Of a stretch of 64,000 nt of DNA, positions 4,292 through 56,987 are shown piece after piece. The notes beneath the pieces are model-generated. The model worked only from the letters and a program-made list of their open reading frames with translations, was not told the origin of the DNA and did no database searches. Source of the stretch: Chalciporus piperatus (taxonomy: Eukaryota; Basidiomycota; Agaricomycetes; Boletales; Boletaceae). Made by a program: the position numbers and the translations under genes. Numbering within the stretch: the stretch's first letter is position 1; each line of letters begins with the position of its first letter. The stretch is from contig JBBPTG010000020.1 of the NCBI GenBank assembly GCA_038093975.1, positions 124,001 through 188,000 on the forward strand. The letters are read 5' to 3'.

Positions 4292-5997
4292 CTACTCGAA
4301 TGGCCCGTTGTTCAGGTAAACATAGGCATCTTCTGTAGATGGAACAGGGTTCCCATTAAACAGCTCTGCAAGACGCTCGTCTGGAAAGAGTGGTTGAGCA
4401 GCAGGTAGCTTGGAAGGAACGAGCGACCTACAAGTAGAACAGCTATCGATGTGCTCGAAATGCTTCAGCGCCCAAGTCGTTCCGGCGGCAGCTTCATCCC
4501 TTCGTCTTTGTCTTTGCTCGTTCTAGATCACGTTGGTCAGAACATGTCGGTCAGACGGTGATGAAACCCATACCTCGATCTTGCTCTTCTCCTTAGCTGC
4601 GGTCTCGAAGTCACCTTCCCTGATACCCTTGGCAACGGCATACCACAAACGCCTGCTTTCCCATTCGCCTTGTTGCTCAGCGGGCGGGACAGTGACTTCC
4701 TCTTTGGGAGAGGTGACGTCGTGGAAAGTAGCGCCAGTGGACTTGTCCGTCGAGGTGGTGTGCCACGTTCCTTGAATGACGCGCTCCGAAGATTGCGAGG
4801 GATGTGCGACCGTGGCCTTAAATGAGTGCGATGTACCAGAAAAGTAACCCTTCCCCTTGTACTCGATCTGAGCACGCGATAATCAGTATCCAACCATAGA
4901 ACGTTGACAAGAAACATACCACCGACAGCCAGCCATTCGAGCCCTGGATGTAGCTTGTTTCGGCTAGCTCGATGTAAGGAGAGCCATACCAAAGACCGTC
5001 GATACGAAGACGTGGTAGGGTAATCAAATATTCTTCCTTCTCGCCAGATGGCAGGTCAAGTGTTAAAATGGCATGACCGACCTGTTTGACAATAATGCTG
5101 CCACCTGGTCATACGTGTGAGCCAACGGGGAAACAGCGCAGAGCGAACTACAAACCGCTGAAACTCGTCTTTTGGGCATTGTGGCCGGTCAGGAGAACAC
5201 CCTTGGCTTTATTGGCTATGCGATAAGCAGTAATGGGAGGGTGATGTGAGACTTGCTCGACGACCAGGGTCGTCTTGCCACCCCGTTCCTTGTTCTCCGG
5301 CCAACAGCCGTAGAAAAGCCTAACATCGTGAGTCGAGAACACATCGTAATTCTTGCTGAATACTCACTCCCCAAGCACAGGGTTTAGAGGCCTTGATCGG
5401 GATTAGATAGGAATGATATACAGGTCGAGGTCACTTACTTTTTCTCGGAACCCATCGATTCATTGCGCGACGTATATTGACCCTTGAGGGTGCTCTGAAT
5501 AATGTTTAGATGAATTCCACCGGTCAAAAAATCATTGGAAAAGTATTACAATGAACCATCTTAGGACAGCCAGTGCACGATCTTCCTCATTCCGAGCGTC
5601 CGCAATCTTCGCAAACAGTTCGGGACGTTCACACCAGTACGCTACAAACGGATCAGTGAGGCCTACAGGTACAAGCAATACTACATACCAGGGAACTCGG
5701 TAAGCGATGTTGGGGACAGAATGAACGGAGGTGCCGTCATGGACGATAGATCTCCGGTGAAGCCAGCGAGGCTGGACGAACGAAATGTTCAGTATACTGC
5801 ATCCATCGGGGGGGATCACCAACGAACGATTTGAGAAACGAGGTCCAACTACTCTTCTGCGCTGCAGGCACGGCCTATATAGTGACGAACGAGGTGGATC
5901 GGGGGTTCGACATGCAGGCAGATTTGTGTTTATGTTGGTTACGGTCAGATCTCAGGAAAACCTTTGACAGACTTGCCTCGCCAGCTTGTTCGGACAT
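4292..5997 (-). CDS. Oxysterol-binding protein, Kes1/Osh4 type
   Basis: Lipid exchange protein (sterol/PI4P) acting at ER-Golgi-plasma membrane contacts. The family signature is direct: VVEQVSHHPPITAYR at about 5220-5270. The N-terminal part reads SSWTSFLKS then LAGFTGDLSSM joined over an intron (donor GTTCGTT, acceptor CAG), and PPFILSPTSLTEFP. The C-terminal exon ends AYVYLNNGPFE with TAG at 4292-4294. There is no sign of PH or ankyrin domains, so it is the short form of about 400 residues. At least seven short introns are needed. The start is set at ATG 5997 (MSEQAGEASLSK); the frame stays open upstream to an ATG at 6093, so a longer start is possible. UBE2G1 lies upstream on the same strand. 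Confidence 0.85.
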
Positions 5998-6219
5998 CTT
6001 GCTATAATCCTTGGAGAAGTAAATAACGGGTTGGGAATGGTCGAGGTTGATGGTCAAGAGCAAATTAGGGCAATGCTGCTGCGACCACTCCATTATTACA
6101 AGTCACGTGATGTCTCACCCTAAGACTCTAGAGATCGAGGGTAGATACCGCAGGAAAAGTGATACACAACTATCGGGACAAAGGACGATATACTACAGCA
6201 AGAGAAGAGAAATAGCCAA

Positions 6220-52682: not shown

Positions 52683-53842
52683 CTAGGCTGAAGCATTCTT
52701 CCCAGTGACTGATAGCGCGAAGACTGCGTTATTATCTGTAACACTAGCGGGAAGGCCGGGAGGAGTAAAAATCGGAGCGACTGGTTTTGTATTGTCAAAC
52801 TCCTGATCAACCCTACTGAACGGTCTCTGTCCTTCTCTCATCTCCCCTTCGATGATTTCTAGCTGGCGAAAGTCGCGCTCGGCTTCAACTCTCCCAGCAT
52901 CTGATTCGGCCCAGGGAACCATGTATCCCGGTGTAATTGCAAGAGATTTATCTCCAATGACCTCCCCCAACTTCTGGACAGAGTCAAAGTCGATGAGCAC
53001 TGGCTGGCCATCTTCAGTGATCATGATGTTGCCCGGCATGACATTGTTGTGGGCGTATCCCAGACTGTGGAGATGTTCAAGCCCTGCGTGAATCCCTTGG
53101 ATGATCTCCGTGATGCGCTCTGTACTCGGGTTGCTGTCAGTATCCCTGACTCTGGCGAGTGTGTGATCATAGCATTCAAGGCATATTCCTGAGAAATAGC
53201 GGTCGCCTTCACAGATGCACCCGTAGTACTTGGCAAGATTTTTGTGGGGGTGGTGTCTTAGGACCTCGTGCATCATTGCATCACGCTGAAGTGAGGAAGA
53301 CATGTCGGCTTTCGTTTGTGCGAGGGTAGGGATGTTGGATTTTTTGATTCCATCTCCACCGTGACCGTGGGCTTCTTCCTCCAATTTGATGGCAGTGGCC
53401 GCGTAATATGATGGGGGTTTGTGGTAGCACTGGCAAATTGTTGGGAGAGCTGTGAGGGACTGCTTGAAAAAAGTCTGGTAAATGTATTCATAAGAGAAGA
53501 CCTCTGATGGCGGATTGGAAACAGATTCACTAGCTTACCCAAGCGATGTCGTAAGATGACCCGAAAAATATCATCACAAAGAGAATCTACATTCTCATGA
53601 TTTACCGAAACCACTTGATGAAGAGCTGCAAATAGTACAGCAGGATATGGAGATTGAACATATTGATCAAAGGTTGCAATAAGATGGTTGCCAGAGGCTC
53701 GACTATCCCAAGGATAACAGGAATGCTCAGATATGAGCAAGATTGCTAAATTAATAAGACAGCTATGCAGTTGAACACAGAAAATAAAAGCATGCTACTT
53801 ACAGGAGGCAACAAAGACAATCTGTTCCTTTGCAGCAGAGGT
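52683..53842 (-). CDS. Protein-kinase-like module (fungal RIO/HND-type), C-terminal part of a possible GTPase-kinase gene
   Basis: Stop TAG at 52683-52685. Read backwards from there, the exon contains GYAHNNVMPGNIM (catalytic loop), PVLIDFDS (DFG position) and, upstream, RRDAMMHEVLRHHPHKNLAK-like text beginning at QRDAMMHEV, plus YYAATAIKLEEEA (ATP-lysine motif). An upstream exon carries TFDQYVQSPYPAVLFAALHQ with VNHENVDSLCDDIFRVILRH, joined through a 35-nt intron, the shortest here. The next exon up reads SAAKEQIVFVAS. No start codon is obvious before 53842. The catalytic loop reads HNN where relatives have HND, so the base Asp is replaced and activity is doubtful. It may be an independent gene with an unseen first exon, or continue from the GTPase across the intron-like array. 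Confidence 0.65.
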
Positions 53843-54013
53843 CTGGAACAGTAAACATTGAAAGAATTGGGATGTCAAAGAGGATATAAATCAACCATGG
53901 AGTGAAGAACACTTTGAGTGTGATATCCCTTAGGCTGAAGGGAAGAAAACTATAGAAATAGTAAGAATATTGTGTCAAGAAAAGATATAATGAATCAAGC
54001 AAATCAGGCTTAC

Positions 54014-54082
54014 ATTCTAGAAAAAAATTGTTTGCAGGAATCAGAGACAGGAATTTAGCTTACCAACTAGATAGGAAAAAGG
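54014..54082 (-). other. Two further intron-like units with 3-nt spacers, not similar to the array
   Basis: Directly downstream of the array on the minus strand, an acceptor TATCTAG is followed by TTG and GTAAGC (spacer 54064-54066). Then TTTTCTAG is followed by AAT and GTAAGC (spacer 54014-54016). The intron-like bodies do not resemble the repeat unit, yet the 3-nt spacing is kept. Confidence 0.6.
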
Positions 54083-55391
54083 CAGGTCAGGACACAAACA
54101 ATGAGATCAGAGTGAGCATGCATCCCAAGACACAATTAGATCAACTGACTGGCTGTCAGGACACAAGCAATTGGATCAGAGTGAGCATACATCCAGAGAC
54201 ACCATCAGATCAACTTACATTCTGTCAAGGAGATTAGGCTAAGCACACATTCAGAGACACTATCACTGGCAGATCAACTTACTGCCTATCAGAATACAAG
54301 CAATGAGATCAGAGTGAGTATGCCCCGGAGTCACCATCAGACCAACTTACTCCCTGATGGCATTCAAGCAATGGAATCAGTGAGCATGCAAAGAGACCAT
54401 CAGCTTAACTTAAACTTACTCCCTATCAGGATTCAAGAAATGAAATCAGAATGAGCATGCATGCAGAGACACCATCAGATCAACTTACAAGCTTGGGCTG
54501 TCAGGACACATGCAATGGGAGCATAGTGAGCACTGATCCATAGACACCATCAGATGAGTCAACTCACTTCCTATCAGAACACAAGCAATGGGATCAGTGT
54601 GGGCACACATTCAGAGACACCATCAGATCAACTTACTCCCTGTCAAGCAATGAGATCAGAGTGAGCATGGATATAGAAATTCCATCAAATCAACTTACTC
54701 TCTACCAGTGTCAGGACACAAGGAATGGATCAGTATGAACATGGATTCAAAGACACCATCAGATCAACTTACAAGCTGTCAGGACACTGGCACAAGCAAT
54801 GGAAGCAGAGTGAGCACGCATCCAGGGACACCATCAGATCAACTTACAAGCTGTCAGGAGACAATGGGATCAGAGTGAGCACATATTCAGAGACATCATC
54901 AGATTAACTTACTTCCTTTTAAAATACAAGCAATGGGTGCAGAGTAAATATACATCCAGTGACATTATCACATCAACTTACTCCCTGTCAGGACACAAGC
55001 AATGAGAGCAGAGTGAGCATGCATGATGCAGACACCATCAGATTAACTTACAAGCTGTCAGATATAAGCAATGAGATCAGTGTGAGGCACCATTAGATCA
55101 ACTTACTCCCTGTCAAACACAAACAATGGGAGCAGAGTGAGCACACATCCAAAGACATCAGATCAACTTACATTCTGTCAGGGAGATCAGAGTGAGAACA
55201 CATTCAGAGATTCCATCAGATCAACTCCTGTCAGAACACAAGCAATGGGACCAGAGTGAGCATGCCCACAGTCACCATCAGATCAACTTACTTGCTAATG
55301 GGATCAGATTGAGCATGCATGCAGAGACATCATCATCATGATTGTATTAACTTACAACCTATCAGAGCATATGCAATGAGATCTGTGAGTA
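54083..55391 (-). repeat. Tandem array of about 20 intron-like units (about 65 nt each)
   Basis: Read on the minus strand, each unit begins GTAAGTTGATCTGATGG, has a middle such as CTCACTCTGATCCCATTGCT, and ends TGTCCTGACAG. That is a donor, a possible branch point and an acceptor. Units are 55-80 nt long, the size of ordinary introns in this genome, and diverge from one another by substitutions and small indels. Between the acceptor-like AG and the next GTAAG there are nearly always exactly 3 nt, and these vary (GGA, CTT, AAT, GAA, GCA, CCA, CAA, GTT, AGA); one spacer is 9 nt and one junction has lost its donor. The array sits between the GTPase exons and the kinase exons on the same strand. 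Confidence 0.88.
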
Positions 55392-55479
55392 GAACTCTTG
55401 ATATCTTCAATTGAATACTTTTTGCTTACCTGACTTTTATCAATACTCCCCTCCATTCTCTCATCTTTATTGCACTCAC

Positions 55480-56696
55480 ATGTATATGTGGAAACCACCT
55501 AGCCATTTGACACTGCATTTTCCAATCCTCTTCTGTTCCCAAGGACATGTTGGATTTTGCAGTCTCTGATAGATATCTTCTCAAGGTCCTGGATAAGTTC
55601 AGCTCAGTGTCAAATCAGTTCCTTTTAGTAATGTATCTTACCTCTTGATTGCATTGATTGCATAGGAAATACAAATCTCCAAGTTGTGGCATTGAGATGA
55701 TACAAGTAAGGACTCCAACACCTCATCATTCAGTGCTGCAGCAGTAGACTGAATTAGTCCAGTACAATCAGCCTTTTCACTCTGCATGTCTTTATCATCA
55801 TTGTCAGCCAATTCAGGCATATGATGAATCCATTCAACACTCACTTGCAAGGCAGACATGGTCCTTTGGTGGAAACTTGGTTGCAGCCAACCAATCCAAG
55901 CATTTGTTATCCTGAAACATCTTGTTTGCTTGCTGAGGGGCCTCTGCCACAGCCTCTTGGAGGCTCTTTTCTTGTTCTCCAAGTTCACCAAATGCAAGTG
56001 TATGCAATGCATCAAACTTGGTGAAAACCACAATGACAGGCACTGACAATTGAATTAGACAATAAATAGACATGTCAAGTAGCTTACCCTGTCGTGTGCC
56101 ACACTCTGAGAAGAAGGCTTCTTCTGCAGTAGTGAATGGCTGTGAATCACCCATCGGAATGCAATACCTATTACCTATAGCACGACATGGGAAATCCATT
56201 CAATAATCATGATAGACACAGACAAACCATATCACATGAAGTCGGGCTAAGAGTCTTGCAATTCCAGCACGCTGGTCAATGAATGACTGGACTTTGTGAA
56301 GCTCATCTGCTCTACTGGTCTCAAATCCACGTGAATCATGAAAAACAAATTGATTGTTGCTTTTGAAAGAAATTTCGTGCTCAATCTCATGCTCACCACG
56401 CTGATCCAGATCGTCAAGCAAACAGCGGACTCGGATGAACCACTAAGATACGCACGTCCTGGGTTCCTCTCACATCGAGAGTGATCTATGGTGATTGATT
56501 AGTATTCCTCTTGTGCTAGCAATGACAGACTCGGATAACAAGTGACCTTTTTACCATAGCGATCACGGACAATCGGGGCCTCGGTTGTCTTGCAATTCCT
56601 CTGAAGTAGCGTGGTTTTCCCAGCATTGGCGCGCCCAATAACGAGGATGCGGAAACGCTGGAACTTCTGCCTAGTCCTTTCATTGCGGTCAGACAT
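55480..56696 (-). CDS. P-loop GTPase (G domain) protein, 5' exons
   Basis: Starts at ATG 56696 (MSDRNERTRQKFQRFRILVI). G1 is GRANAGKTTLLQR, G3 is HDSRGFE after EHEISFKSNNQFVF, and G4 is VIVVFTKFDALH. Further exons read YCIPMGDSQPFTTAEEAFF, EQEKSLQEAVAEAPQQANKM, LDWLAATKFPPKDH, and NDEVLESLLVSSQCHNLEIC. Next comes TLRRYLSETAKSNMSLGTEE with MARWFPHIH at the 55480 border, where a GTGAGT donor follows. The family of such G-domain proteins is large in Agaricomycetes and its function unknown. The frame stays open upstream of 56696 to ATG 56987 through an HPRGRS repeat. The 3' exons are not inside this span; the gene must continue through or beyond the intron-like array. Confidence 0.75.
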
Positions 56697-56884
56697 GGCG
56701 GAGTATGATAAATGTTGGTGAACTTGAATGGTCGAGTGCTGTGAGGGCAGTAGCTGGATGATGCGAGAGCGGAAAGAATGCCCGGTCACAGGCGTCGCAC
56801 AGGATTGACCAGGCTCCCACGGCGACACGGAGCACCTCCTTGGCCCTCTACTGGTAACCGGCGGGAGAGACTCACCTTCTCGTT

Positions 56885-56956
56885 GAGACCTTCCTCGCGG
56901 GTGAGACCTTCCTCGCGGGTGAGACCTTCCTCGCGGGTGAGACCTTCCTCGTGGGT
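56885..56956 (-). repeat. 18-nt minisatellite, four copies, encoding HPRGRS on the minus strand
   Basis: GAGACCTTCCTCGCGGGT occurs four times in tandem on the plus strand, the last copy with one change. On the minus strand it keeps the frame of the GTPase gene and reads as four HPRGRS hexapeptides between ATG 56987 and the chosen start at 56696. It may be coding (longer start) or 5' leader. Confidence 0.9.
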
Positions 56957-56987
56957 GCTTTCCTTGTGAGTTTGAACCATGTTTCAT

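Follow-up and report, generated by a model that had tools for sequence, protein, structure and literature searches.

In Tuber melanosporum, the nank genes (Iotti et al. 2012) contain tens of codon-sized microexons, as related in PMC4986451 and PMC3689799. The locus that we analysed lies in a stretch of 64,000 nucleotides from Chalciporus piperatus (GenBank assembly GCA_038093975.1, contig JBBPTG010000020.1, positions 124,001 to 188,000), hereafter the window. It resembles the nank genes, as these accounts present them, in that a fungal gene family has expanded and its members contain tens of putative one-codon exons, with a proposed role in protein diversification. At the level of genomic sequence, the nank-type anatomy is found here, with 15-44 parsed 3-nt junctions per array and phase 0 on both sides. 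According to the same accounts, however, the nank genes encode NLR proteins (NACHT-ANK) of an ascomycete and alternative splicing has been reported for them, whereas the genes described below form a small-GTPase family in a basidiomycete.

Several other systems share part of this anatomy. The micro-exon genes of Schistosoma have short symmetric exons, for which protein variants by splicing have been proposed, but these exons, as summarised in PMC5825161, measure 6-36 bp, make up ~80% of the coding region and encode mostly secreted proteins, whereas here the units are 3 nt long and confined to one linker. The aphid bicycle and megacycle genes likewise form a fast-evolving family with many single-phase micro-exons; their internal exons, as described in PMC9168663, are in phase 2 and constitute most of the protein, in contrast to the single phase 0 codons considered here. 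That exons of 3 nt or less can be spliced is indicated, in the account given by PMC7392893, by the 3-bp micro-exon of Drosophila hth, and 1-nt exons are reported from plants (PMC8831610; PMC4674806); these cases are single exons, whereas ours lie in arrays.

In human SNHG14, tens of introns that resemble one another follow in succession (29 and 48), but the product, following PMC11608373, is snoRNA from the introns rather than codons between them. The tandem dual-specific splice sites of UBC, as outlined in PMC10809524, also involve a tandem array with a variable number of in-frame repeats, but there the repeat unit is the coding ubiquitin monomer and here it is the intron. Fungal introner-like elements, as portrayed in PMC4457414, are near-identical spliceosomal introns whose many copies lie in unrelated genes, whereas the present copies were found in tandem and in one gene family; among the matches listed in a DNA search of the fungus's own genome, no introner-like spread over unrelated genes was found. 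Finally, the HNWD-type repeats of fungal NLRs combine, in the account of PMC4986451, homogenised repeats, a few hypervariable codons and repeat-number polymorphism; their homogenised part is protein-coding, whereas here it is intron, and the variable codon alone would code.

The intron array and its host gene

The features of the locus are listed below in the direction of the gene.

55480..56696, minus strand: G-domain half, seven exons (56547-56696, 56456-56485, 56228-56400, 56088-56167, 55845-56042, 55642-55789, 55480-55588), their joining guided by homologues
55359..55479, minus strand: stretch between the last G-domain exon and the first 3-nt spacer, from base reading
54086..55358, minus strand: tandem intron array, 18 donors, each after a 3-nt spacer (one after a 9-mer)
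54064..54066, minus strand: 3-nt spacer TTG before donor 54063, between introns of unrelated sequence
54014..54016, minus strand: 3-nt spacer AAT before donor 54013
53539..53949, minus strand: C-terminal domain exons (53896-53949, 53803-53842, 53539-53745), from paralogue comparison

The initial annotation had described tandem intron-like units with 3-nt junctions on the minus strand at 54083..55391, together with a list of the spacers that included one lost donor and one 9-mer, and our base-by-base reading agrees with both. The donors that follow AG plus 3 nt lie at 55355, 55291, 55171, 55106, 55051, 54981, 54912, 54847 and 54772 in the first half of the array and at 54698, 54636, 54567, 54488, 54419, 54350, 54282, 54218 and 54149 in the second; two are noted as departing from GTAAGT, namely 54567 (GTGAGT) and 54149 (GTCAGT). 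A donor is lost between 55291 and 55171, and the 9-mer CCCAAGCTT, read base by base, precedes donor 54488. From high to low coordinates, the spacers are GTT, CAA, (donor lost), AAT, GGA, CTT, GGA, GAA, CTT, CTT, AGA, GGA, GAA, the 9-mer, GGA, GGA, GCA, AAT and CCA, for which we propose the one-codon exons V Q N G L G E L L R G E (PK)L G G A N P. The array, which was also picked up by TRF, has units of irregular length and is the least regular of the eight arrays that we parsed.

There are 19 occurrences of the motif YAG-NNN-GTNAG on the minus strand of the window and three on the plus strand, and 18 of the 19 on the minus strand constitute the sole run of at least two in the window. Shuffling of single bases within 500-nt blocks (n = 100) gave 6.1 motifs per strand and never a run longer than 2, showing that the run of 18 junctions is not due to chance.

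Upstream of the array, a zero-length AG|GTAAGC junction is present at 55430/55429 (minus strand) and also in the four paralogues compared. It is possibly a recursive splice point and could be of the nested, stwintron-like kind; in stwintrons a splice element is split by an inner intron, whereas the array junctions leave 3 nt. On the downstream side, two introns unrelated to the array units keep a 3-nt spacer, as had been noticed before: TTG is retained at the matching place in the four paralogues compared, where the counterparts of AAT are AAG, AAG, GAG and ATG.

The exons upstream of the array encode a P-loop GTPase (MSDRNERTRQ...IGRANAGKTT...FHDSRGFE...TKFD...WFPHIH) and, once joined, form an open frame ending with ...WFPHIH in phase 0. 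The best-scoring named homologues among the matches listed are from Boletales (Boletus, Pisolithus, Tylopilus, Imleria). For the model of the copy on contig C128, the best Pfam family is MMR_HSR1 (6.7e-06), and neither NACHT nor ANK was matched in Pfam at E 0.01. We dropped a reading in which the WFPHI exon runs on to '...VLIKVR': it is open in the window, and there is a stop there in C128, C220, C110 and C259. Several gene models of the GTPase family stop within a few residues of WFPH (e.g. P0001, P0002, P0006, P0143).

The exons downstream of the array begin in phase 0 and encode, exon by exon, LHSM, (FQ)TSAAKEQIVFVAS and SILLISEHSCYPWD...HRLG. A matching C-terminal domain follows WFPH in the relatives P0026 (Suillus hirtellus) and P0152, the latter joining the counterparts of the first two C-terminal exons without a gap. 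The acceptor TTCCAG of exon 53803-53842 is inferred, the AG that the paralogues have 6 nt further upstream being absent from the window; the window's acceptor likely drops FQ of the C-terminal domain. Both flanks of the array are in phase 0 and the C-terminal domain of the same protein is encoded downstream, which places the array within a single gene. The arrangement that the initial annotation had named as contradicting its reading, an array between two separate genes, is thus not what is seen.

Note that the 3' tail of the window GTPase differs from that of its paralogues. The open frame directly downstream (52683-53534, minus strand) encodes a protein kinase domain (Pfam PF00069, E 4.6e-15), and a GTPase-kinase fusion or read-through is possible at this locus. 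A minisatellite of 18/36 nt is found at 56861-56957, just upstream of the GTPase start codon.

Paralogous arrays, spacer diversity and relatives

A search of the genome for the unit, which had been suggested as a check, matched the window and six other contigs among the matches listed, and every matched region that we examined belongs to the GTPase gene family. Eight arrays were parsed, with 17 junctions in the window, 35 in C128, 44 in C220, 17 in C110, 15 in C259, 43 in C229 and 26 and 15 in C122, i.e. 212 in total; this set is restricted to YAG-NNN-GTNAG and drops real-looking junctions, such as TTG before GTAGGC on C128, which is why the joined C128 and C110 models lack the TTG codon. All eight arrays follow the same exon of GTPase paralogues (for C229, whose array reaches the contig end, the downstream side alone is on the contig). 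An array is present at all seven places that match the C-terminal exon; this exon was not found at the C259 copy, which insertions interrupt. No further run of three junctions was found in the stretches fetched for the G-domain copy on C3 and for the distant copies on C122 and C110. Distant GTPase paralogues, of the FVLHDSLGFEPG type, lie near three arrays (C122:66276, C122:18323 and C110:25401), without any such array in the stretches scanned.

The common unit is 69 nt (66 + 3) in C128, C220, C110 and C259 and 75 nt (72 + 3) in C229 and C122. Across the eight arrays, 199 of the 208 array-type donors stand 3 nt after YAG. Five of the nine exceptions have no YAG in reach (two of them stand 3 nt after AAG), and the remaining four are spaced by 0, 5, 9 and 11 nt, one each; the 11-nt case is inside an insertion, and the 5-nt junction, in array L015, would break the frame if used. 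The donor is GTAAGT in 188/212 junctions, 183 of the 185 introns under 100 nt measure 50-75 nt and a candidate branch motif, CTCAC, is found in 137 of these 183. The array introns have the hallmarks of the U2 type, with a GT donor, an AG acceptor and an ordinary fungal length. The joined G-domain exons are open in the window, C128, C110 and one C122 copy (the last exon of the C122 model was placed by eye), and the C128 and C110 models remain open through their 35 and 17 parsed micro-exons.

Identity between the flanks of the C128 and C220 arrays is 99.4% over 856 nt and 98.9% over 1750 nt, which suggests alleles or recent copies. The arrays themselves, with 35 versus 44 parsed junctions, share their ends and are rearranged in the middle; in paired units, introns differ at 21 of 1382 positions and spacers at 5 of 60. 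Matches of more than 200 nt between the C220 copy (L011) and the C128 copy start inside the third G-domain exon, and the C220 copy may be without its 5' exons. In C259 (L013), insertions of several hundred bases are present at ~5140-6150 and from ~6820, within array units and in the region of the downstream exon; this copy has probably been broken by mobile elements.

No phase 0 stop codon is present among the 212 spacers, against 9.0 expected from base shuffling within arrays. For the 182 distinct units the expectation is 8.45, and zero was never reached in 20000 shuffles; with codons counted once per array (81), which is the fairest figure given duplication, 3.05 stops are expected (P 0.029). 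As the initial annotation had stated, the spacers vary while their flanks are conserved, and this mostly holds across the arrays: the spacers are hypervariable and the introns homogenised. In five of the nine unit sets, no other position of the unit is as diverse as spacer positions 1 and 2, and in a sixth these two tie for first, in a comparison that omits irregular units and the window array (which has three regular units only). The exceptions are C229 (75-nt introns), C259 and C122 (L016), where spacer positions 1, 2 and 3 rank 13, 1, 13; 10, 2, 17; and 1, 5, 5, respectively. Mean intron-body diversity ranges from 0.005 to 0.30 across the sets; GT and AG are invariant within regular units, and some sets show variation at donor position 3 and at the base that precedes AG. 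When introns are near-identical (two body differences at most), their spacers differ in 48 of 61 pairs. Contrary to the pattern of ordinary coding constraint, spacer position 3 is less variable than the first two positions; it doubles as base -1 of the donor. Because homogenisation would level the spacers too, either selection or a mutation hotspot must keep them diverse, and a hotspot instead of selection could account for the diversity. The constant 3-nt spacing was dropped as proof of coding, few indels being expected in so short a stretch, and intron length modulo 3 carries no information, since the modal units have lengths divisible by 3 and account for the excess of such lengths (153 of 185).

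Relatives provide a further comparison. Eleven of them, ten JGI proteins and another with the label 'lgn', are intronless, come from contigs of 1.1-1.85 kb and carry at the array site a variable segment of 17-47 residues flanked by conserved sequence (for example, TTMMAEAWDDYNDDYWLDDDAGDFAYRRK in P0123). The short contigs indicate that they are probably mRNA-derived, and their inserts are at most candidate products of micro-exons. The amino acid composition of the inserts correlates with that of the spacer codons (Spearman rho 0.65, p 0.002, 11 relatives with boundaries set by eye and a few conserved edge residues included), also when expressed as enrichment relative to the remainder of the gene (Spearman 0.56, p 0.010). 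This comparison left out P0058 (cut tail), P0120 and P0121 (which share the insert of P0089) as well as these genome models: P0026, P0095, P0128, P0129, P0130, P0133, P0135, P0136, P0189, P0190 and P0207. Tyrosine is enriched about five-fold in both inserts and spacers, and lysine and glutamine are low in both; tryptophan, histidine and threonine disagree, the first two being common in the inserts and rare in the spacers. At the array site, P0121 is identical to P0089 save for a 17-residue insert, ASRLIPHYLCLLIIIYQ, which can be read as one retained 51-nt GC-AG intron in phase 0. The Suillus genome models P0129, P0189, P0190 and P0207 contain partly repeating stretches at this site that start with VS (GTAAGT), the pattern that gene predictors would produce by reading through introns in tandem; by contrast, P0026, P0095, P0135 and P0136 have short linkers only. 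In an AlphaFold model of P0089 (from 11 sequences; mean pLDDT 60), residues 296-333, in the linker region, are below 50.

Proposed splicing of the array and other readings

We consider it highly probable that the GTPase gene harbours homogenised tandem spliceosomal introns, that each 3-nt spacer is a one-codon exon and that the array generates a hypervariable linker. The units, mostly 60-75 nt long, would be recognised by intron definition via their near-perfect U1 site. GTAAGT is a full match to U1, and such a match in the donor may leave the exon bases at liberty to vary. Simultaneous occupation of a donor and of the acceptor that lies 3 nt upstream is hardly possible; the units would therefore be removed sequentially, one after another, each spacer adding one residue to the linker that joins the G domain to the C-terminal domain. 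As the spacers are 3 nt long and in phase 0, splice-site loss, skipping and unequal crossing-over would alter the linker in length and sequence but keep the frame, and the array would act as a frame-safe generator of a hypervariable linker; the loss of a donor, as between 55291 and 55171, would cost just one codon. By contrast, retention of most units would stop translation, the consensus GTA AGT TGA reading V-S-stop. Going one step further, the hypervariability of the linker suggests that it may recognise self, non-self or a partner. Such a role has been argued for hypervariable parts of fungal NLR repeats, as conveyed by PMC4986451.

The initial annotation had offered spliced micro-exons and a minisatellite within a giant intron side by side. 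In the latter case an amplified intron would be removed whole as one phase 0 intron, in one step or nested, and the spacers would never reach the mRNA. The phase 0 flanks accommodate both outcomes, skipping everything also keeping the frame, and removal as a single intron would fit the short linkers of four Suillus genome models and the zero-length AG|GTAAGC junction just before the array. It sits poorly, however, with the absence of stops among the 212 spacers, with spacers more diverse than the intron bodies, with the 3-nt spacers kept by the two trailing unrelated introns in the window and the paralogues compared, and with the inserts carried by relatives. We thus favour spliced micro-exons and regard the giant intron as unlikely. 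It is more improbable still that the arrays are decaying remnants, above all in the window, whose gene copy would be degenerating and its array without present function: the insertions in C259, the C220 copy that matches C128 only from inside the third exon on, and the least regular array and changed 3' tail of the window gene point that way, but the joined G-domain exons are open in four copies (window, C128, C110 and one on C122), GT and AG are nearly invariant in regular units and no spacer is a stop.

Another reading supplements the splicing of one-codon exons rather than competing with it, namely that splice choice among equivalent units yields many mRNAs per allele, with different in-frame subsets of codons. 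Judging from the sequence, donors and acceptors are equivalent and every subset would be in frame, and papers citing the work on the Tuber nank genes state that these are alternatively spliced. However, the single near-identical pair seen, P0089/P0121, has the same insert codons and differs by one retained stretch, and we find such combinatorial use rather doubtful.

Implications for a Boletales GTPase family

The arrangement had seemed new to the initial annotation. This does not hold for arrays of codon-sized microexons, which have a precedent in Tuber nank; the present case belongs to another gene class and phylum. As far as our literature search shows, the novelty lies in a GTPase host in a basidiomycete, in homogenised tandem intron units and in the opposition of conserved introns and hypervariable codons: the open-access literature, searched by titles and abstract starts (most subscription papers lying outside), contained no such report in Boletales or GTPases.

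If the proposed splicing is true, as many as ~45 successive exons of 3 nt are joined in their genomic order, and the array amounts to a direct test of the spliceosome on exons too short for two splice complexes, with dozens of equivalent donor-acceptor choices to face. It would also explain the GTPase gene models that end near WFPH, and it predicts protein variation missed by current annotation. We further put forward, tentatively, that Boletales GTPase genes write a hypervariable recognition linker with one residue per exon, change it as intron arrays recombine between alleles and paralogues, and may draw many linkers from a single allele by splice choice, which, together with Tuber nank, would represent a design that arose independently in two fungal phyla. 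If spliced as proposed, the array would allow a protein segment to evolve by intron shuffling without damage to the frame; such a gene architecture is rare and could enable the fungus to alter this part of a protein very fast.
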